From the NCBI RefSeq assembly GCF_003751945.1, contig NZ_RJKL01000001.1, positions 5,270,001 to 5,334,000 of the forward strand: a stretch of DNA of 64,000 nucleotides, given 5' to 3'. The position numbers and the translations under genes are program-made. This DNA comes from Couchioplanes caeruleus (lineage in GTDB: Bacteria > Actinomycetota > Actinomycetes > Mycobacteriales > Micromonosporaceae). Positions within the stretch are counted from its first letter, which is position 1, and each line of letters begins with the position of its first letter. Below the pieces are notes generated by a model that ran no database searches, was not told the DNA's origin, and was given only the letters and a program-made list of their open reading frames with translations. Shown piece by piece: positions 32,162 to 42,616 of the stretch.

Positions 32162-32604
32162 AGTCCGCTTTTAACCGGCATGAGGGACACGAGCGTACTT
32201 TCGTCGTATGAAACTGGCGATTCGGTCAGGTGGCTCAGCCGTTCGGACAGATGGCGTCTACAAACACTGCATAATCCGGCATCTTGCCTTGCCGTCGGCT
32301 TCCGTGCGAGCCATCGTCTGTGCTGCGCGATCGAAAGAGATCGGGCCAGATCGGCACGCACGAGAACCCGGGCGCGCCGACTGAATCGAGTGACGTTAAG
32401 AGACTTGCCATATACGAGCAGTGATGACTGGCCGGCGATGTCGGCGTCTCCGGACGCCGCTTCGCGTCACACAAACGGTCCGGGTCAGGCTGCTCTTTCT
32501 CTTTGACACTCGTCGTGATGGAATCTCGGGGGCCCGACCGGTGAGTCGGCCGTGTGCGGTGCCCGGTGATCCGACAACCGGGTCCGAATCAGGAGGACGG
32601 TGAC
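32162..32604 (+). other. Long, relatively AT-rich region upstream of the conservon
   Basis: This is a 443-base gap with visibly lower GC than its surroundings. ORFs of 108 codons (plus) and 80 codons (minus) exist, but their composition and lack of ribosome-binding sites make them unconvincing. A perfect -35 hexamer TTGACA (32503-32508) lies 97 bases before the kinase start without a matching -10. The region likely holds the conservon promoter and possibly regulator sites. Confidence 0.45.
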
Positions 32605-35600
32605 GTGAGCAAGCGCCCCAAGACGGCGAACGCTGTCATGTCGCGTCTCCGCCGGCCGGCAGGCCGGCTGCGGGACCTCCCCATCTGGTCCAAGCTCGGG
32701 CTCATCATGCTCGTGCCGACCCTGGCGACGATCGTCGTCGGCACCCAGGGCCTGCTCGACCACATCGACGAGGCCACCAACGCCGAGCGCGCCCGGACGC
32801 TGTCCGTGCTCTCCCGGGAGGCCGGCGGGCTCGTCGACCACCTGCAGAACGAGCGCGCCTACGCCGTGATGATCGCGACGACCGACGAGGGCACCAAGGA
32901 CCGCGACACCGCCGACATCAACTACCGGCGCGAGCACCCGAAGGTCGACGCCGCCAAGCTGCCGTACTCGCAGCAGAAGGCCGCCCTGGACGACATTCCC
33001 CCGCAGGTCAACACGCTTCTGGTGAAGCTCGACCGCGACCTCGAGGGGCTTCCCGCGGTCCGCAGCCAGACCTCCAACGGCAACCTCGACATCGAGGACA
33101 TCGAGTCGGCCTACGGCGCGATGATCGGCGGTCTGCTCAGCGTGCGTGAGGCGTCGGCCCAGCTAGCGCTGGACACCGCGCTGAGCGACCGGCTGCGAGT
33201 GGTCGCCGGCGTCGCCCGGTCGAAGGACTTCGTCTCCCAGCAGCGCAACGTCGGTCACAAGATTCTCGAGAACACCAACTTCACGACCGCGCTGCGCCGC
33301 GAGTTCCTGCTGACCGACACCGGTTTCGCGATCTCCGACGATGCGATGCGCCGGGTCGCCACCGCCGAGGACGAGGCCCTCGTCGACCGCGTCGTCTCCG
33401 GGCCGGCCAAGCGGGCCGCCGACAACATCATCACTCCGCTGAAGAACCTCGGTCTGAACCAGTCCACGCAGATCTCGTTCAACCGGGAGTCGTGGGAAAC
33501 CTCGATGACCGGCTACAACAACCTGTTCCGCAGCGTCGAGAACCGGCTCGACGGCCAGATCGTCGACCAGGCCACCGACATCCGCGACGACGTGCAGCGC
33601 CGGGTCTTCATCGAGACCAGCATCCTGCTCGGCATGCTCCTGCTCGCCATCGTCTTCGCCTGGCTGGTCGCCCGGTCGATGGCCCGCTCCCTGCGCGAGC
33701 TGCGCCAGGGCGCGCTCAACGTCGCCCAGTTCGGCCTGCCGCAGGCGGTCGAGCGGCTGCGTGACCCCGCGCTGACCGGCTCGCTCACCCCGGCCCAGGT
33801 GGCCGACCAGGTTGCCGAGCCGCTGCCGGTGCGCAGCCGGGACGAGTTCGGACAGGTGACCGAGGCGTTCAACGCCGTCCACCTGGAAGCCGTCCGCACC
33901 GCGGCCGAGCAGGCCGCGCTCCGCTCCTCCGTCTCGACGATGTTCGTCAACCTCGCCCGCCGCTCGCAGATCCTGGTCGACCGGCTCATCGGTCACCTCG
34001 ACCGCCTGGAGCGTGGCGAGGAGGACCCGGACCGCCTGGCCGAGCTCTTCCAGCTCGACCACCTGGCCACCCGGATGCGCCGCAACGACGAGAACCTCCT
34101 CGTTCTCGCCGGCGCCGACTCCACCCGGGTCCAGCGCGAGCCCGCCGCCCTCATCGACGTGCTCCGCGCCGCGCAGTCCGAGGTCGAGCACTACACCCGT
34201 ATCGAGTTCGGCATGATGGACCGGGACATCGAGGTGTCCGCGCACGCGGTCAACGACATGGTCCACCTGGTCGCCGAGCTCTTCGACAACGCGACCGCGT
34301 TCTCCCCGCCGAACTCGCACGTCGTGGTCGAGGCCCGGCGTCTCGGCGACGGTGTGGTGCTCTCGGTCGAGGACCGCGGCATCGGCATCAGCCGCGAGCA
34401 ACTGCGCGACCTCAACGAGCGCCTGGCCAACCCGCCGATGGTGGACGTCGCCGTCTCCCGCATGATGGGCCTGGTCGTGGTCGCCCGGCTGGCGAACCGG
34501 CACGGCGTCAAGGTCGAGCTGCGTCCGGCCGACACCGAGCGTGGCACCGTGGCCGACGTCGGCCTGCCGGTCGGCGTGCTGGTGACGCCGGCCATGGCCG
34601 CCCGGGTAGCGGCCGGCGCGACCAGCGGCGCCGGATCCTTCGGCGGCACCGAGCACGCCCGTCCCGCGTTCGCCGAGCCGCCGCTGGCGCTCGAGAGCGG
34701 CACCAACGGCAGGGGTGGCTACCCCGGCGGGCGCCCCTTCGACCCGAACCCGCCGATTCCCACCGGTGGCATGCTCGGCACCGGTGGCGGTCGTTCCGCC
34801 CCGGCCTGGTCCGACCTGACCGGCGCGTCGTCCAACGGCTTCGAGCCGCCGAACGGCTTCGGTGGTTCCTCCAACGGCTTCGGCGGACAGTCCCAGGGCT
34901 TCGCCAACGGTGCCGGTGGCGCCAACGGCTACCACGGACCGCGCAGCAACGAGCCGATCCCGCCGCTGCCGCAGGCCGGCCCCCAGGGCTTCGCCGGTGG
35001 CGAGGCGCTTCCGCAGCGCCGTAACGGCGAGACGTTCCGGCCGGACGACACGGGTTCCTTCGGGCACACCATCCCGCGCCAGCTTCCGCCCAGCCCGGAG
35101 TCGCAGGGCCGGTCGCCCTTCGTGCCGCCGGTCTCGGCGCCGCCGGTGCCGCCTGTCTCCGCGCCGCCGGTGTCGTCCGCGCCGCCGTACGCGGGTGGCC
35201 GTCCGGTGTCGGCGCCGCCCGTGTCGGGCCCGCCGATCTCGGCCCCGCCGAGCGCGGACCGGCCGTTCTCGGCCCCGCCGAGCACCAACCGGCCGTTCTC
35301 GGCCCCGCCGAGCGTGGACCGGCCGCTGTCGGCCCCGCCCGCCGCCGCCAACCCGCCGGCGTGGCCGCCGGTGTCGGCCGACCGCGAGCACGGCACCCCG
35401 CCCGTTCCGGAGAGCCTCGCGGCCGCCCTGGACCTGACCGCCGAGTTCCCGCACTACCGTGCGGAGCGCGCCGGCTCCGGAGCCCAGCCGCAGGTCGCCC
35501 GGCCGGCCGGCGCGGAGAAGGCGACGCCGTCGAGAGAGTCGTCGCCGCAGAGCGAGGCCGAGCGGTCCGCCGCGGCCGCCGCGGCGGCGCACGAGGCGGC

Positions 35601-36393
35601 GACCCAGCAGGCCGCGGCCGCCCAGGCGACCGCCGCCGCGCAGATCGCCGCCGCGCAGGCCGCCGCCCGTCAGCGGGCCGGTGACGGCCAGGCGAAGTTC
35701 TCCGACGAGACGATGGAGCTGCCGATTTTCCGGGAGCTCGAGTCGGCCTGGTTCACGACGGCCCGTCCGGCCGAGTCTCGGGTCACCGAGCCGCGGTCCA
35801 CCGAGCTCGCGCCTCCGGCCGAGCTGCAGGACGACGTGGTCAGCACCCAGCGCTTCTCGACCGGGGAGCCGGCGCGCACGGCCGCCGTGCCGCAGCAGGC
35901 CGCCTCGCCGGAGACACGCGACGGTGGCCGGGAGCCGGCACCCGTGGGCGCCGTCGCCACCGGCTCGGCTCCGAACGGCTCGGCCGTCAACGGCACGGCT
36001 TCGAACGGCTCGGCCGTCAACGGCACGGCTTCGAACGGCTCGGCCGTCAACGGCACCTCGGCCGGCACACCCGGCGTCGGCGGACCGGTCAACCCGTGGC
36101 AGACCGCGGCCGACGAGGGGTGGCATGCCGCTCGCAAGGCCGCCGAGATGCCGGTGGAGACCACGACGACGGCCGGCCTTCCGCGCCGTACGCCGATGGC
36201 GCAGCTCGTTCCGGGCGGTGTCGACCGGGCCGAGACCTCGGTGCAACGCCGCACTCCCGAATCGGTGCGTGGGCTGCTGTCCGCGTACCACCGCGGGGTG
36301 CAGCGGGGTCGCACGAAGGATCAATCGACCAACCCGGAGGAGACTCCGGGAGGGCAGCAGTCCTCGCAGGCTGGCAAGGAGCATGAGGCATGA
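32605..36393 (+). CDS. cvnA: Conservon sensor histidine kinase (CvnA-like, NIT domain)
   Basis: This 1262-residue membrane kinase is the first gene of a conservon. TM1 is at about 31-48. An extracellular nitrate/nitrite-sensing-like (NIT) helical domain spans about 55-320, TM2 is at about 335-357 and HAMP follows. The phosphoacceptor region [12 protein letters not shown] has His about 486. An HATPase_c domain has N-box [10 protein letters not shown] (about 557) and G-box EDRGIGIS (about 590). Residues from about 660 are a low-complexity Pro/Gly/Ala tail with two 10-residue repeat arrays and a conserved end: [11 protein letters not shown], then [15 protein letters not shown] and [12 protein letters not shown] 32605 follows AGGAGG at 8 bases. 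The stop overlaps the roadblock gene. No response regulator is adjacent; signalling probably goes to the CvnB-D partners. Confidence 0.93.
35242..35331 (+). repeat. Three 30-bp repeats encoding [14 protein letters not shown] decapeptides
   Basis: Three consecutive 30-bp units in the kinase gene encode [20 protein letters not shown] and [10 protein letters not shown]. They extend a Pro-rich linker in the cytoplasmic tail. Confidence 0.8.
35974..36060 (+). repeat. Three 30-bp repeats encoding [10 protein letters not shown]
   Basis: Three near-identical 30-bp units encode [10 protein letters not shown] twice and NGSAVNGTS once, in the kinase tail just before the conserved C-terminal block. Near-perfect identity at DNA level suggests recent expansion and likely length variation between strains. 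Confidence 0.85.
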
Positions 36394-36794
36394 CAAGTAC
36401 GCAGGATCTGGGTTGGCTCCTCGCCAACTTCGCCGACCGCGTTCCCGGGGTTGCGCACGCGATCGCGGTCTCCGCCGACGGTCTGCTGCTCGCGGCCTCG
36501 CGGGACCTCCCCCGTGACCGTGCCGACCAACTGGCGGCCATCGCCTCCGGCCTGGTCAGCCTGACCCAGGGCGCCGCGCGGTGCTTCGAGGGCGGCGCGG
36601 TGCTGCAAACGGTCGTGGAGATGGACAACGGGTTCCTCTTCCTGATGTCGATCTCCGACGGCTCCTCGTTCGCCGTGCTGGCGGCCCGGAGCTGCGACGT
36701 CGGCCAGGTGGGCTACGAGATGGCGCTGCTGGTGGACCGCGTGGGCGAGGCTCTGACGCCGGCTCCGCGCTCAGCGGCCGGGGTTCTCGGCTGA
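36390..36794 (+). CDS. cvnB: Conservon roadblock/LC7-domain protein (CvnB-like)
   Basis: This 134-residue protein overlaps the kinase stop (ATGA). It is a single roadblock/LC7 fold: [31 protein letters not shown], then a second helix and strand set ending [14 protein letters not shown]. CvnB proteins interact with the kinase and the GTPase in a G-protein-coupled-receptor-like complex proposed for Streptomyces conservons. The length is normal. Confidence 0.92.
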
Positions 36795-36880
36795 ACGGAT
36801 GGTTCTCCGGATCCGTCCGGTATCTGTCCAAACGCTTGACAACACGAGACACTTCTATGGGCCTAGGGATGGGGTGAGCG

Positions 36881-37261
36881 GTGACGATGCCCGAACGCGA
36901 TGAGCCGACCGGCGCACTGGTCAGACCGTACGCCGTAACCCGTGGCAGGACCCGGCCCAAGCTGGAGATCGCGCTGGAAGCGCTCGTCGAGACCACCGTC
37001 CGCGGCCGTTCCACCGGTACCGGCAGGGGCGGGAGCGAACACCAGTACATCGCGGCGATGTGCGACGGCGGCAGAGTGCAGTCGCTGGCCGAGATCGCCG
37101 CACGCATGCAACTACCGCTCGGGGTGGCTCGAGTGATCGTCGCCGACATGGCCCACGACGGCCTGGTGGCGGTCTACGAGCCGACATCGCTGGAGGATGA
37201 GACCGATGCGGTGGGTACGGAACTGCTGGAAAGGGTGCTGAGTGGACTTCGCAGGCTCTGA
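36881..37261 (+). CDS. cvnC: Conservon DUF742 protein (CvnC-like)
   Basis: This 126-residue DUF742 protein has LVRPYAVTRGRTRP near the N-terminus and a winged-helix-like C-terminal half (SLAEIAARMQLPLGVARVIVADMAHDGLV). It is separated from cvnB by 86 bases, unusual within an otherwise overlapping operon. That gap contains a TTGACA hexamer at 36836-36841 without a clear -10. The GTG start follows a G-rich stretch. It overlaps cvnD by 20 bases. Confidence 0.9.
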   Translation: MTMPERDEPTGALVRPYAVTRGRTRPKLEIALEALVETTVRGRSTGTGRGGSEHQYIAAMCDGGRVQSLAEIAARMQLPLGVARVIVADMAHDGLVAVYEPTSLEDETDAVGTELLERVLSGLRRL

Positions 37262-37850
37262 CATGGCGCGCCGGCCGACCGCCGGACGCGTGACATCGGC
37301 GAAGATTGTCATCGCCGGTGGGTTCGGCGTCGGTAAGACGACGCTGGTGGGGTCCGTCTCGGAGATCACCCCGCTGACCACTGAGGCGATCATGACCTCC
37401 GCCGGTGTGGGTGTCGACGACAACCGGCAGGTGCCGGGTAAGACGACGACCACCGTGGCGATGGACTTCGGCCGCATCAGCATCGATCGCGACCTGATCC
37501 TGTACCTGTTCGGCACGCCTGGCCAGACGCGTTTCTGGTTCATGTGGGACGAGCTGGTCCGGGGCGCGATCGGCGCCGTCGTCATGGTGGACACGCGTCG
37601 GCTCGCCGACTGCTTCGCCGCCATCGACTTCTTCGAGCACCGGCGGCTGCCGTACCTGGTCGCCATCAACTGCTTCGACGGCATGCAGTACCACAACGCC
37701 CAGGACGTTCGCGACGCCCTCGCGATCTCCAGCGACGTGCCGGTGGTGAGCTGCGACGCCCGCAACCGCGAGTCGACGAAGAACGTACTCATCTCGCTGG
37801 TCGAGTACGTCCTGACGATGCGCCGATCGCGCGCGGTAGCGCCCGCCTGA
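37242..37850 (+). CDS. cvnD: Conservon small GTPase (CvnD-like)
   Basis: This 202-residue Ras-like GTPase has P-loop GGFGVGKTT (26-34), switch-like TTTTVAMDFG, the G3 motif FGTPGQTRFWFMW, and INCFDG at the G4 position instead of NKxD, as in this ATP/GTP-binding family. GTG 37242 has AAAGGG 7 bases upstream and overlaps cvnC; ATG 37263 is an alternative. It should be the GTPase output of the conservon. A strong terminator follows. Confidence 0.92.
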   Translation: MDFAGSDMARRPTAGRVTSAKIVIAGGFGVGKTTLVGSVSEITPLTTEAIMTSAGVGVDDNRQVPGKTTTTVAMDFGRISIDRDLILYLFGTPGQTRFWFMWDELVRGAIGAVVMVDTRRLADCFAAIDFFEHRRLPYLVAINCFDGMQYHNAQDVRDALAISSDVPVVSCDARNRESTKNVLISLVEYVLTMRRSRAVAPA

Positions 37851-37861
37851 CAGCCGGTCAG

Positions 37862-37894
37862 AAGTCCCGCTCTGTGCGACAGAGCGGGACTTTT
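37862..37894 (+). terminator. Rho-independent terminator of the conservon
   Basis: AAGTCCCGCTCTGT (37862-37875) pairs perfectly with 37879-37892 around a GCG loop and is followed by TTTT, 12 bases after the cvnD stop. Confidence 0.9.
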
Positions 37895-38323
37895 GCATGC
37901 TCGGATGCCGTTCATCAAGCGAGCGTTCTCGTCCAGGAAGGACGTATGGCTCGCCGAAGTCGGGATTCCCTCCGGTGTCGCGGGCGGCGGCCTTCGCCCA
38001 CTTCATGGCCACGGAGGGAGTGCACCCGGACGGAGCGCACGCGGAGGGGCGCATGCGGACGGGGCCATGCCCGGACGGAGTGCGCGGACAGGGCCGCACC
38101 CGGACGGAGCGAACGCGGACGGAGCGCACGCGGACGGAGCGCACGCGCACCCGGACGGAGCGCACGCGCACCCGGACGGAGCGCACGCGCACCCGGACGG
38201 AGAGCATGGAGCCCCTCGAGAGCCGCTGAGCGCGATGCTGAGCGACCAAAGCCCCGTGGGTGTCAAGAAGGCCAGGCCTCGAAGGCTACGCCTCGGAGAC
38301 TTGCGCTGAGCTCGATCGGGTAG
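37895..38323. other. Region between the convergent conservon and IS110-like gene
   Basis: This stretch of about 430 bases is dominated by the tandem repeat at 38024-38203. Three plus-strand frames and one minus-strand frame are open across the repeats, because repeat units are multiples of three. None has a convincing start or normal amino-acid composition, so I call no gene. Confidence 0.5.
38024..38203. repeat. GC-rich tandem repeat array (15-bp and 21-bp units)
   Basis: The core GGACGGAG recurs at irregular spacing from 38027. It then becomes regular: three 15-bp units of type CGGACGGAGCGCACG at 38101-38145 (the first with one change), followed by two perfect and one partial 21-bp unit from 38149. 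The longer unit is the 15-bp unit plus six bases. Translations are HADGA/HAHPDGA or RTERT/RTRTERT depending on frame. Confidence 0.85.
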
Positions 38324-40495
38324 TCAGCGGCTGGGGTAGCCCGCGTTGCGGTAGTCCTCGACCTCTTGACCGTCGCGGCTGAAGTCCCAGCCGCCTGCGG
38401 ACTCGCGTCCGGGGCGTCCGCCGATCGCGTAGCCGCCGATCTCCTGGCCGCGGCGCCAGCCGCGGAAGTAGCCGGTGGTGTGTGCCGCGATGCTGGCGGC
38501 GTCGCGGACGATGCGCAGCGGCCGCTCCTCGCGCAGGGGGGAGCCCGGCACCAGGTTTGCCTGCGGGACGCGCTTGGGCAGGCCGGCCTTGGTCTCCGCG
38601 GCCACCTCCGGCGCCGAGGCCTTCTCCGCCGCGCGCCAGCCGGTGTCCATGGGGCTGGTCCAGTCGAGGTCGGCCGCCGAGGTCGTCGAGGACTCGTCGT
38701 GACCGGTGAACCAGGCCGAGCGGGCCGCCGCGAAGATCAGCAGGTCGCCGTCGCCCTCGGCGGGGACCGGTGGGGTGGTGCTGCGGTCGAGGGCGGTCAG
38801 CGTGGGGGCGCGACGGGCCGCGGCGCGGCCGTTGCGGCCGGCGCGCTCGTCGACCAGGCGCAGGGACGGCGGCTCGGTGATCGCCGTGATGTCCGCCGAG
38901 GTGTTCGCCAGGCCGGACTCCACCAGGCGCAACGCCGGCGGCTCCTTGGGCATGTCCTGCCACGGCGGCTTGACGCGGCCGTCGGCGGGCGGGCCGCTCA
39001 CCGTGGCGGCCGGCAGGGTGGCCGGCGGCGCGGCCGGGGACTCGGCCGGCTCGTCGCCGTTGAGCAGCGGCCAGTTGGCGCGCGAGCCGGGCTCGGGTGT
39101 CTCCGAGGCGGACCGCTGCACCGGCATGGGTAGGGAGAAGTCCGTCGCGCCGGTGCGGGTGCTGGGCGGGATGACCGTGCGCTGGCGCTCGGCGCGGGCG
39201 CTGCTCATGGCGGCGTTGGTCAGCGTCGGGCGGAACGGTTGCCCGGCGTCGGCCGGAGGCACCGAGGACGGGCGCGTGCCCGGCGTGATCGGCGTCATTC
39301 CCGGCGGGGGCGGCGGCACGGAGACCGGGCGGCTGGCGGGGCCGGGGTTCGGCGTGCGGCTCGGCAGGCCGGCGGCCGGGGCCACCGGCGGCGGCGTCAC
39401 CGGGCGGGGCGCCAGCGGCGGCGGCATGACCGGCTCCGGCGCGACCGGCGGGGAGGTCATCGGGCGGGGCGTCACCGGGCCGTTGCCCGAGACGGTGGGC
39501 TCCGGCCGGCTGCGGCGGCCGAGGCGTGCGGCGGCGGAGGTGCGGGTGGGCAGGCTCGCGGCGTCCGGCTCGGTCGCCCGGCGGGAACCCGCCTGGCGGC
39601 GCGCAGTGCCGGCCTGCTGACCGGACCGTGCGGCGAGCGTGCCGACCAGGGCCTCGCACGCCGAGTCGCACGACCGGACCGCGGCGACGGCGTGCCGGAT
39701 CGCGTCGGCGGCGGCCGGGGCGAGCGCCTTGTTGACGCCGCCGCGGCGGGGCGACTCGCTGATCGCCACGACCAGCGCGGTGACCGCCGAGACGACCTGG
39801 TCCTCGGTGCCGGCGCCGGCGCGGGTCAGCTCGACGGCGACCTCCTCGGCGACCTGCTGGGCGTCCTTGCCCCGGCTGGTGAGGCGGCCGGGCTCGGGCA
39901 GCGCGTCCAGGACGGCCAGGGCCAGCGGGTGCGCGGGGTCCGGATACGCCCGCAGCGCCGCCGGATACAGCTCCCGCAGCACCTCGCGCAGGGCCATCGC
40001 GGCGGCGTGCCGGCCGTCGAGCATGGCGATGTGGGCGGCGAGCACGGGCTTGTAGCTGACCAGCTCGCGCGGCGCCGGGATGGTGACGGCCGCGATGGCG
40101 CCGGCCTGCAGTGCGCGGGCGAGGCCCACGGCGCGGCGGGCGGCGGGCGGTGCGGCGATCTCCTCGGGGGACTCGTCGTCGGAGAAACGCTCGGCGAAGT
40201 CGTCGGCGGAGTCGTCGTCGGCCACCACGAGGGGGCGTCCGGCGGCGGTCAGCAGGGAGGTGACCGTGTGGTCGTCGCTGTCGGCGGCCACCGCGGCCTC
40301 GGCGAAGCCGCTCGTCCGCTCCACGAGCAGCGTGCCGAGCTGGGCGTACCCGGCCGGGTCGTCGCTGATCTCGTGGACGCCGAGCAGCCGGCCCGCGTCG
40401 TCCACCACGGCGATGGTCAGTGCCGATCCGGCCGAGGCCGTGCGCACCGTCTCATCAGCCGACGCCAGACCGCAGTACACGCGCACGAGCGCCAC
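38324..40495 (-). CDS. IS110-transposase-like N-terminus fused to conservon-kinase-type tail
   Basis: This 723-residue protein of unknown function starts at GTG 40495, with GGAGGAGG 8 bases upstream; longer versions of the frame lack support. Residues 1-190 resemble the DEDD RNase-H-like domain of IS110-family transposases (VYCGLASADE, VVDDAGRLLGVHEI, LLTAAGRPLVVADDD, then LRELYPAALRAYPDP and LDALPEPGRL). The positions where IS110 has its first Asp (GID) and Glu (VEATG) read GLA and VAADS, so catalysis seems lost. No second transposase domain (Transposase_20) follows. Residues about 300-590 are Pro-rich. The tail has LLIFAAARSAWFTG, TKAGLPKRVPQANLVPG and YFRGWRRGQE, as in the kinase at 32605. 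It may be a conservon-associated scaffold; this is inference. Confidence 0.75.
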   Translation of the reverse strand: MALVRVYCGLASADETVRTASAGSALTIAVVDDAGRLLGVHEISDDPAGYAQLGTLLVERTSGFAEAAVAADSDDHTVTSLLTAAGRPLVVADDDSADDFAERFSDDESPEEIAAPPAARRAVGLARALQAGAIAAVTIPAPRELVSYKPVLAAHIAMLDGRHAAAMALREVLRELYPAALRAYPDPAHPLALAVLDALPEPGRLTSRGKDAQQVAEEVAVELTRAGAGTEDQVVSAVTALVVAISESPRRGGVNKALAPAAADAIRHAVAAVRSCDSACEALVGTLAARSGQQAGTARRQAGSRRATEPDAASLPTRTSAAARLGRRSRPEPTVSGNGPVTPRPMTSPPVAPEPVMPPPLAPRPVTPPPVAPAAGLPSRTPNPGPASRPVSVPPPPPGMTPITPGTRPSSVPPADAGQPFRPTLTNAAMSSARAERQRTVIPPSTRTGATDFSLPMPVQRSASETPEPGSRANWPLLNGDEPAESPAAPPATLPAATVSGPPADGRVKPPWQDMPKEPPALRLVESGLANTSADITAITEPPSLRLVDERAGRNGRAAARRAPTLTALDRSTTPPVPAEGDGDLLIFAAARSAWFTGHDESSTTSAADLDWTSPMDTGWRAAEKASAPEVAAETKAGLPKRVPQANLVPGSPLREERPLRIVRDAASIAAHTTGYFRGWRRGQEIGGYAIGGRPGRESAGGWDFSRDGQEVEDYRNAGYPSR

Positions 40496-40640
40496 GGCGT
40501 CGTCCTCCTCCCCAGGTGAGGGTTGTTCGCGACCTACCTCGAGTTGCACGGCTGCCTGGCGGCTGTGCCGAGATCTCCACCGTCGCGAACAATGCTCATC
40601 GCTGCTGTTTTCGCCAAGGACTGATGGTCCCTGGTGAGGG

Positions 40641-41546
40641 TCAGTCGCGCCAGTCCACAGCGGCAGAGATCTTGCCGATGACCGAGCGCCACCCGAGACT
40701 CGCCTGCTGCGCCCCGATTTTACGGAGCTTGCGGCGACCGAAGAAACCGCCCATTCCGCCACTTTCCGCGGACCGGAGGGACTCGTCCAGGTCGTCGAGT
40801 GGCGACCCCGGTGCCAACGCCAGGATCACCGGCTTCAGCCGCAACGCGTGGCCCAGGTCGCGGGCCACCTCGCCCGCGGCGATGAGTAGCGGCAGGTCCC
40901 ATGTGTCGTGACCGCCGCGCAGGTTCTCCACCACGAGGTCCAGCTCGTAGCGATCCTCCGGCAGCGGGTCGATGTCGGACGACTGTACCCGCTCGGCCAC
41001 TGTGTCCCAGGTGTCGAGTTGTGCGAGGTCGTGCGGAGCACCCGATTGAATGAAGGCGACCAGCGACTCGGGGGTCTTGAAGGCCAGCAGTTTGCCGCGG
41101 TGGCTCAGGAAGACGGGCACCTCCTCATCCCCCGCTTGGACATCCGCCTCCTCCGCGGCGTCATCCTTGAAGTCCTCGGGGTCGGGCTCCTCGACGACCT
41201 CGCCGTCCTCGTTGCGCAGGACGGCGCCGGGCTTGCGGTCCTTCGGGTCGGCCTCGCCCTCGGTGACGAGCGCGGCGAACTCGTCGTCGACGATCGCGCC
41301 CTCCGCCGCGGCGGCCCGCGCGGCCGCGGCGCGCTCGCGCGCCTCGAACGGGTCGTCCTCGTCGGTCTCGATCTCGGTGGGAGTGAGCTCCGAGGCCTGC
41401 CGGTGCGCCCGCAGCGTCAGCGCCACGCCGCCCGGCATGGCGATCTCTACCGGCGACACCCGGACTTCTTCCCAGAGCGCACGGCCGGATAGGCCTCCCT
41501 TGACCGACGAGGTTTCTGCGGCCTCTTCGGGCGACTGGCTGGCCAC
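40641..41546 (-). CDS. Conserved-looking hypothetical protein, 301 residues
   Basis: GTG 41546 is 5 bases after GGAGG; the open frame upstream is a shadow of the aldehyde dehydrogenase gene. The N-terminal 50 residues are polar (ALWEEVRVSPVEIAMPGG). A strongly acidic Ala/Glu/Asp segment covers about 55-140. A globular C-terminal half follows (VPVFLSHRGKLLAFKTPESL, LDLVVENLRGGHDTWDLPLL) ending GKISAAVDWRD. There is no signal peptide. It lies 145 bases upstream of the IS110-like gene on the same strand and may be functionally linked. The family is not recognised. Confidence 0.78.
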   Translation of the reverse strand: MASQSPEEAAETSSVKGGLSGRALWEEVRVSPVEIAMPGGVALTLRAHRQASELTPTEIETDEDDPFEARERAAAARAAAAEGAIVDDEFAALVTEGEADPKDRKPGAVLRNEDGEVVEEPDPEDFKDDAAEEADVQAGDEEVPVFLSHRGKLLAFKTPESLVAFIQSGAPHDLAQLDTWDTVAERVQSSDIDPLPEDRYELDLVVENLRGGHDTWDLPLLIAAGEVARDLGHALRLKPVILALAPGSPLDDLDESLRSAESGGMGGFFGRRKLRKIGAQQASLGWRSVIGKISAAVDWRD

Positions 41547-41628
41547 GCTGACCTCCGGGTTGGTTCTCGCGAGCTGTTCGGACGGGTGAGTCTGGGCACA
41601 CACCTTAGTGGTCCAACCTGGAAGGAGG

Positions 41629-41642
41629 CCGACCGCGGTCGG
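41629..41642. repeat. Perfect palindrome CCGACCGCGGTCGG
   Basis: A 14-bp perfect palindrome lies in the 113-base gap downstream of the aldehyde dehydrogenase pair and upstream of the 301-residue gene. It could be a regulator-binding site. A TAAGGT -10 candidate for the 301-residue gene lies on the minus strand nearby. Confidence 0.35.
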
Positions 41643-41659
41643 AAACACCCTCCCGCGGG

Positions 41660-42616
41660 TCAGAAGCCCTTCGGGTGCCAGACGGTCTTGGTCTCCAGCA
41701 GTGCCGTCATCGCGCCCAGGCCCGGGTCCGCGGTGAAGTCGGCGGCCTCGGCGCTCGGGCGGACGACCCGCTTGAGGCTGCCGGCGGCGGACCGTTCCAG
41801 GTCGGCGGCGAGCGCCGGATCGGTGACCCCGGTCAGGTCGAGCGCGTTCACGTCGTCGTGTGAGGCCAGCCAGGGCGCGACCTCGGCGGCGTGCCCGGTG
41901 AGGATGTTGACCACCCCGCCCGGCACGTCGGAGGTGGCCAGCACCTCGGCGAGGGTGACGGCGGCCTGCGGGGCGGCGGCGAGCACGACGACCGTGTTGC
42001 CGGTGACGATCGCCGGGGCGATCACGCTGACCAGGCCGAGGAAGGACGGCGGTGCCACCACGGCGACGACCCCGGTGGGCTCCGGGGCGGAGAGGTTGAA
42101 GAACGGGCCGGCGACCGGGTTGGCGCCGCCGTGCACCTGTGCGATCTTGTCGGCCCAACCGGCGTACCAGACCCAGCGGTCGATGGCGGCGTCCACCTCG
42201 GCGGCCGCGACGCCGCGGGCGACGAACTCCGCGTGGCGCGCCTCGAGCATCTCCGCGACCCGGTAGAGCACCTGTCCCCGGTTGTAGGCGGTCGCCCCCG
42301 CCCACTTGGGCTGCGCCGCGCGAGCCGCGACGACGGCATCCCGCGCGTCCTTGCGGGAGGCGAGCACGACGTTGTCGCCGTCCACGAGATAGGTCCGTCC
42401 TGATTCGCTGCGCGGGAAGGCCCCGCCGATGAAGAGCTTGTAGGTCTTGCGGACCGCCAGCCGTCCGGCGCCGCCGGGGCGGGAAACGTCCGCCACGGCC
42501 GCCGGGACGGCCGAGGTCGCTCCGGCCTTGACCGCGGACGACCTTCGGACCGCGACGGCCTTGCCGGCCGCCACGGTGCCGGGCTTGCGCGAGCGGGAAG
42601 AGGATGACTCAGGCAA
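41660..42616 (-). CDS. Truncated aldehyde dehydrogenase-like protein without catalytic domain
   Basis: This 318-residue protein corresponds to the N-terminal NAD-binding part of an aldehyde dehydrogenase (YKLFIGGAFPRSESGRTYLV, WVWYAGWADKIAQVHGG, VVAPPSFLGLVSVIAPAIVTGNTVV). It stops near ADPGLGAMTALLETKTVWHP, lacking the catalytic Cys motif. The usual length is about 480. It starts at TTG 42616, with GGAGG 6 bases upstream inside the end of the full-length ALDH, overlapping it by 8 bases. A basic Ala-rich N-terminal extension of about 45 residues precedes the domain. The pair resembles the two-domain ALDH16 enzymes, split into two genes. Confidence 0.82.
   Translation of the reverse strand: MPESSSSRSRKPGTVAAGKAVAVRRSSAVKAGATSAVPAAVADVSRPGGAGRLAVRKTYKLFIGGAFPRSESGRTYLVDGDNVVLASRKDARDAVVAARAAQPKWAGATAYNRGQVLYRVAEMLEARHAEFVARGVAAAEVDAAIDRWVWYAGWADKIAQVHGGANPVAGPFFNLSAPEPTGVVAVVAPPSFLGLVSVIAPAIVTGNTVVVLAAAPQAAVTLAEVLATSDVPGGVVNILTGHAAEVAPWLASHDDVNALDLTGVTDPALAADLERSAAGSLKRVVRPSAEAADFTADPGLGAMTALLETKTVWHPKGF

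Follow-up and report, generated by a model that had tools for sequence, protein, structure and literature searches.

We analysed a window of 64,000 nucleotides (nt) from Couchioplanes caeruleus (Actinomycetes; Micromonosporaceae; contig NZ_RJKL01000001.1, positions 5,270,001 to 5,334,000); the host class, host family and own genome referred to below are those of this organism. The window contains a minus-strand open reading frame at 38324-40495, here called the fusion gene, whose product consists of a head (residues 1-298) joined through a proline-rich linker to a tail (residues 581-723). A complete conservon, an actinobacterial G-protein module comprising cvnA to cvnD (32554-37850), lies convergent with the fusion gene, and 473 bases separate the latter from cvnD. 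An initial annotation had described the head as an IS110-transposase-like domain domesticated beside a conservon, and the conservon, the good ribosome-binding site and the proline-rich linker that it reported were all recovered (Table 1). Searches with the single fusion-protein sequence were largely uninformative: there was no match in Pfam or among PDB sequences, NCBIfam returned one chance match (expectation value, E, of 0.096), PHROGs returned one match at E 0.42, and a tblastn search of plasmids retrieved two records only, both with weak matches to the tail. Relatives of the fusion gene were collected at 39 named loci, the closest of which was again from Couchioplanes caeruleus (95% identity in the best segment). 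In the relative from Actinoplanes sp. TFC3 (L027), the frame was broken after 459 amino acids, through either an error or a real loss.

Table 1. Features of the fusion gene and its surroundings in the window (A2, tail profile defined in the text; pLDDT, predicted local distance difference test).
Feature	Coordinates	Strand	Basis or remark
Fusion gene	38324..40495	-	723 amino acids; GTG start at 40495, stop 38324-38326; translation without inner stop
Residues 1-140, degenerate RuvC-like (IS110 DEDD) domain with changed catalytic residues	40076..40495	-	
Residues 141-298, helical part matching IS110 coiled-coil region, contains ELYPAALRAYPDP	39602..40075	-	hhalign alignment spans helical part
Residues 299-580, long proline-rich linker, predicted disordered	38756..39601	-	model pLDDT mostly <50
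Residues 581-723, C-terminal tail of conservon-kinase (CvnA) type: LLIF..SAWF, GLPKRVPQANLVPG, YFRGWRRG	38327..38755	-	BLASTP to the window's CvnA, E 2e-10; profile A2
LPxR motif, L639 P640 K641 R642	38570..38581	-	invariant in 26 aligned full-length sequences
Ribosome-binding-site-like GGGGAGGAGG	40504..40513	-	8 bases 5' of start; almost unchanged across 22 aligned upstream stretches
cvnA, NIT-HAMP-HATPase kinase bearing a tail like that of the fusion protein; true start possibly further in	32554..36393	+	Pfam NIT, HAMP, HATPase_c; tail match
cvnB, roadblock protein, 4-base overlap with cvnA end	36390..36794	+	Robl_LC7, E 8.8e-23
cvnC, DUF742	36881..37261	+	Pfam
cvnD, small GTPase	37242..37850	+	ATP_bind_1 (PF03029), E 1.2e-33; weak Ras, E 0.0037
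Terminator-like hairpin between convergent cvnD and fusion gene	37859..37895	.	inverted repeat I11, 17 nt, 94% complementary; T run on + strand
Conserved upstream neighbour, no Pfam family, start unsettled	40641..41510	-	tblastn

Conservon kinases have been described as carrying a C-terminal extension in which an LPxR motif is conserved (PMC4316618); the extension was noted there in 2014, its role being left unsettled, and its arginine was remarked upon as notable, given that conservon GTPases and roadblock proteins have no conserved arginine finger. Sequence comparisons give good support to a new assignment, in which the tail of the fusion protein is this LPxR tail of the CvnA kinases, present without the kinase; the 'signalling-type tail' of the initial annotation is thereby made exact. 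Residues 612-684 matched the C-terminal end of the window's CvnA, and a similar SAWF box precedes the match in both proteins. A tail profile (A2) was built from 18 tails, namely that of the window and 17 of the 19 divergent ones that the motif had retrieved; near copies (L115, L120), tails missed by the motif (L104, L106) and tails cut by contig ends (L105, L109) were left out. The L, P and R of the motif were invariant in the 18 aligned tails, the form in the fusion protein being LPKR or LPRR. When 150 of 254 candidates from the own genome were scored, A2 matched three proteins, the fusion protein, the CvnA beside it and one further kinase of CvnA type. The last of these, a NIT-HATPase conservon kinase that also carries this tail, is located at C1:3376021-3376284 (L159). 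Across the host class (27 candidates scored per genome), 53 of 148 genomes were matched, with a best score outside the host family of 81.8 bits versus 163-169 bits for the fusion gene in four genomes. Pfam analysis of 17 tail proteins, two of them from the host family, identified HATPase_c in 16; the remaining one (L172) is fragmentary, and upstream of it CvnA-like sequence continues in a different frame. By Pfam, HATPase_c was absent from the window's fusion protein and from three divergent ones, and NIT and HAMP were absent from the window's.

Profile alignment likewise lends good support to the head being a relative of the IS110 recombinases that corresponds to their RuvC-like and coiled-coil half. 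The head profile (A1) was derived from 34 close heads, those of the window and of 33 of the 39 loci, leaving out near copies (L004, L006, L014), the locus with the broken frame (L027) and two loci with a missing start (L033, L037). For hhalign, these were combined with 21 of 23 divergent heads (L107 and L125, which did not match the start motif, were left out), and the resulting 55 heads were aligned with 17 of 26 IS110-like frames, chosen by the IS110 start motif and a length of more than 300 amino acids from that motif. The alignment reached a probability of 99.5 and an E of 3.5e-22 over 261 columns (3.9e-28 under other alignment options), and an E of 1.3e-16 was reached with only the 11 most divergent heads. 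The controls fell far short of these values, with a best E of 0.12 from 50 column-shuffled targets and of 0.16 from the reversed target. The alignment extended through both the RuvC and the helical part and stopped before the Tnp domain. The ELFPGAL-type motif placed at the helical end by the initial annotation was present as ELYPAALRAYPDP, complete in 32 of the 34 aligned heads, and ELYPAALRA was found in all 34. In the AlphaFold model of the head, which has helices at 149-176 and 259-296, Foldseek ranked IS621/ISCro4 as the top four PDB matches, so that fold and profile both point to the IS110 likeness proposed initially. A search of PDB sequences with A1 did not retrieve IS621; its only matches, none better than E 0.31, were sigma-54 factors and a reductase.

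When A1 was used to search 394 host-class genomes (six candidates scored per genome), 17 were matched, three at full length in the host family and 14 others in part (E 9.6e-4 to 1.6e-15). Six of the 14 partial matches span from column 47 or earlier to column 180 or later, and eight begin at column 137 or later, near the ELYPAAL stretch. In the own genome, A1 matched an IS110 frame (L042) at E 8.5e-8, and this frame is a match to PF01548 too. Nine PF01548 matches over the cut-off were counted in the own genome (L040-L047 and one more), several of them partial or in short frames.

IS621 has been described as consisting of a RuvC domain (1-122), a dimer-making coiled coil (123-188) and a Tnp domain (189-326), and its recombination as requiring each of D11, E60, D102, D105 and S241 (PMC11208158). 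The four RuvC catalytic positions read A, D, A and R in all 34 close members, that is, in the window protein and 33 orthologues, and the first catalytic Asp was lost in all 55 heads, close and divergent. The initial annotation had both the first Asp and the Glu replaced by Ala: the former replacement was confirmed, the residue aligned with the Glu is Asp (VAADS) and not Ala, and the DxxD pair is gone as well in the close members. In the divergent heads, the Glu position carried Asp in 17 of 21 and kept Glu in one; Asp was seen at the third column in 2/21 and at the fourth in 5/21, columns at which the alignment may be off by one residue, and several divergent lineages carry KDALDDA-like letters at the DxxD site. 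Because of this uncertainty, we claim the loss of the DxxD pair for the close members only. The second transposase domain was also missing, as previously noted: Pfam gave no match up to E 10 in the fusion protein to PF02371, the Tnp domain with the catalytic serine, and a linker modelled as disordered comes after the coiled coil.

The fusion gene was found nearly throughout the host family. A1 matched 296 of 300 family genomes (seven candidates scored per genome), representing 43 of 44 genera, and by our own count there was exactly one match in 278 of the 296; the extra match in the own genome is an IS110. Matches weaker than E 1e-20 numbered 28, all in four genera, and each of the 12 that were read had the tail (16 were left unread). 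The tail search gave a strong match in two of the four genomes missed by A1 (163 and 169 bits), raising the total to 298 of 300, and the last two genomes are assemblies of 780 and 360 contigs. Head and tail occurred together in all 21 divergent frames not cut by a contig end before the tail. The surroundings were similarly maintained. Among the 39 named loci, cvnD was downstream and convergent in 36, the contig ending first in the remaining three, and the upstream neighbour was detected by tblastn in 37, the other two loci starting inside that gene; it was also kept in 11 of 12 divergent regions. No inverted repeat flanked the fusion gene among 25 of the 33 pairs listed for 37840-41700, which agrees with the absence of terminal repeats reported initially. 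For 11 close pairs, the ratio of non-synonymous to synonymous substitution rates (dN/dS) was 0.07-0.21 in the head, 0.09-0.41 in the linker and 0.00-0.25 in the tail, the linker being highest of the three parts in every pair. The fusion gene is under purifying selection in a conserved place, and has the appearance of a long-established core gene rather than a mobile one. Taken with the profile and fold likeness to IS110, the changed catalytic residues and the Tnp domain that was not found, this suggests that an IS110-type RuvC domain was domesticated for a non-transposition job near the conservon, as the initial annotation had proposed.

In some lineages, the fusion gene is accompanied by a roadblock gene of its own. 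A second roadblock gene, with a product 37-44% identical to CvnB, was located on the same strand downstream of the fusion gene in 10 of 12 divergent regions; the fusion-gene stop and the presumed roadblock start overlap or touch in seven of these 10, and the two second-roadblock proteins tested were Robl_LC7 in Pfam. A profile of this second roadblock type (A3) was then searched in 69 family genomes, of which 20 matched at 165-234 bits, a proportion that is no frequency for the family, as the genomes were chosen by hand and divergent ones were included deliberately. In 20 of 20, the matching gene shared the strand of the fusion gene and was downstream of it, no more than about 150 bases away in the 19 worked out and by estimate in G419. 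Among the other 49 genomes, 41 had a single A3 match of 108-115 bits, which in the own genome is the conservon's cvnB, and eight had none at the threshold. A CvnB-like gene was also present within 250 bases downstream of the tail-bearing kinases in all 18 loci tested. Roadblock genes thus follow both the fusion gene and the kinases, and an LPxR-tail protein is therefore often encoded beside a roadblock protein, kinase or not.

No roadblock frame was visible in the gap between the fusion gene and cvnD in the window, which contains tandem repeats instead (38012-38206; 12 copies of 15 nt and 4 of 21 nt, 96%). This repeat-bearing gap occupies the place where divergent relatives carry the roadblock gene. 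Its length is about 0.5 kb in the window versus about 5-7 kb in L010, L014, L016, L017 and L034. CvnB and CvnD of the window's conservon were 93-100% identical in the named loci reaching them.

We consider it rather probable that the fusion protein is a kinase-free conservon adaptor, in which a dead-recombinase head binds a partner and the tail engages the roadblock-GTPase module. The mechanism that we infer from the sequence would run as follows. The head would dimerise through its coiled coil, as IS621 does, and would bind a partner or ligand. The tail would engage a roadblock protein, its own where one is present and the next-door CvnB in the window's lineage, and through it would set the state of the GTPase CvnD. 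In this way a signal could reach the G-protein module, or compete with it, with no need of the histidine kinase. Interactions among CvnA9 to CvnD9 have been reported from two-hybrid tests, and a proposal exists that CvnB8 links the sensory and GTPase halves (PMC8510531, PMC13343842).

Several observations weigh against such an adaptor. The link between tail and roadblock protein rests on gene order only, and the tail was not modelled with confidence, the full-length model lying mostly below a pLDDT of 50. At the A3 threshold, 49 of the 69 genomes, the window's included, were without a roadblock gene of the fusion gene's own, and the pairing there would therefore be with another protein or with none. 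No conservon was present within the stretch read in 4 of 12 divergent regions, so that the fusion gene and its roadblock gene can stand alone. Regarding the head, PF01548 was touched by only 2 of the 34 heads (best E 0.027, below the Pfam cut-off) and the unrelated FMN_red by 16 (best E 0.014); because FMN_red touches more heads than PF01548, Pfam alone is insufficient for the IS110 claim. The AlphaFold model of the head was of middling confidence (pLDDT 67.6; predicted template modelling score 0.52).

A tail without a kinase, in a protein in which family searches found no sensor or output domain, would also be expected of a decoy that keeps roadblock proteins from the kinase, turns the conservon down and passes no signal of its own. 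We regard this as unlikely: purifying selection on the head speaks against it, as does the retention of head and tail together in the divergent frames, which a plain decoy would not need.

It is more doubtful still that the head binds RNA or DNA in the manner of IS110 with its bridge RNA, so that the protein would be a nucleic-acid sensor feeding the G-protein module. Net charges were averaged over the 34 close heads, those 19 of the 21 divergent heads which were long enough, and 17 IS110 proteins. The head averaged -14.7 in the close members and -11.8 in the divergent ones (range -26 to -2), compared with -0.6 for the same stretch of the IS110 proteins and +10.2 for the whole IS110 proteins. 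The RuvC part averaged -14.2 in the close, -5.7 in the divergent and -4.8 in the IS110 proteins, and the helical part -0.5, -6.2 and +4.2, respectively; by these split averages, the charge change of the divergent members sits in the helical part alone. Because the whole head has turned acidic, protein binding appears likelier than nucleic-acid binding. Of the two jobs named in the initial annotation, nucleic-acid or protein binding, the latter has thus gained and the former is less likely. A conserved RNA before the fusion gene was also considered and held unlikely: the upstream gap is short in 19 of 22 sequences (61-86 nt, against 145-158 nt in three, including the window), the longer form in the window contains a palindromic stretch found in few of the aligned sequences, and an Rfam search gave no match; an RNA gene may lie elsewhere. 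Two 17-nt inverted arms, 48 nt apart, were observed before the fusion gene at 40517-40598 and may be a small inserted element. A joint version, to which we give little credence, holds that a bridge-RNA recombinase became, at an early stage of the family, the sensory head of a small-GTPase system, the dead RuvC-coiled-coil dimer still reading nucleic acid; if true, the RNA or DNA state of the cell would gate a roadblock-GTPase switch without a kinase.

We find it very improbable that the head is an RNase-H-fold domain with no special relation to IS110. Pfam made no call at its cut-off, and Spt6, RuvC and Tex scored nearly as high as IS110 in the structural comparison; when 14 heads and 16 IS110 proteins were placed in one tree, the fusion family formed a single, fully supported group, and this tree cannot separate a position inside IS110 from one as its sister. 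Against this stand the continuation of the alignment into the helical part, with its IS110 stretch of LREFYPAALxAF type, and the frames that A1 found outside the host family, which were IS110-like where read. That the gene is a transposase remnant in decay, or was fused by chance, would agree with the lost catalytic residues but is scarcely credible for one matched in 298 of 300 genomes, in a conserved place and with a dN/dS well below 1.

Kinase-free adaptor or not, the fusion protein can be set beside several known systems. With the IS110 recombinases (IS621, ISCro4; PF01548 and PF02371), it shares the RuvC-like fold, the coiled coil and the stretch of ELYPAALRAF type, and it differs from them in its changed DEDD residues, the Tnp domain that was not found, its conserved place, its more acidic head and its signalling tail. 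The Piv DNA invertase, a relative of IS110, represents a chromosomal use of the IS110 fold; it reportedly requires its DEDD motif, which is lost in the fusion protein. Nop5 of the box C/D ribonucleoproteins and TasR with its inactive RuvC resemble the fusion protein in combining an inactive RuvC with a coiled coil (a middling structure match), whereas no C-terminal RNA-binding Nop part was seen in the fusion protein. The dead RuvC of Nop5 has been described as recruiting a protein effector, a methyltransferase, which offers a precedent for a protein job (PMC12045711).

Among conservon components, the CvnA kinases have the C-terminal LPxR tail in common with the fusion protein, as well as a roadblock gene downstream, which the fusion gene has in some lineages (20 of the 69 chosen genomes) and not in the window; unlike them, the fusion protein has no NIT, HAMP or HATPase and carries an IS110-type head instead. 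The known accessory proteins CvnF (GAF) and CvnE (P450) are, similarly, extra proteins encoded beside a conservon (PMC13343842, PMC8510531), and CvnF8 has been reported to bind and stimulate its kinase (PMC13343842). The fusion protein differs from both in having no GAF or P450 match in Pfam and in possessing its own LPxR tail, and, while CvnE and CvnF are described as accompanying kinases that lack a NIT sensor, the fusion gene adjoins a kinase that has one. In the open-licence literature searched, there was no precedent for an IS110 domain in signalling, and the fusion protein is a conservon-type component with a head of a kind that we have not seen described there for conservons. It would exemplify the recruitment of an IS110 recombinase into signalling, in a system for which signal entry has been described as poorly understood (PMC13343842). 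As a natural LPxR tail without a kinase, paired in some lineages with a roadblock gene of its own, it separates the job of the tail from that of the kinase and makes the former testable, both in the binding of roadblock proteins and in the action of the arginine on the GTPase.
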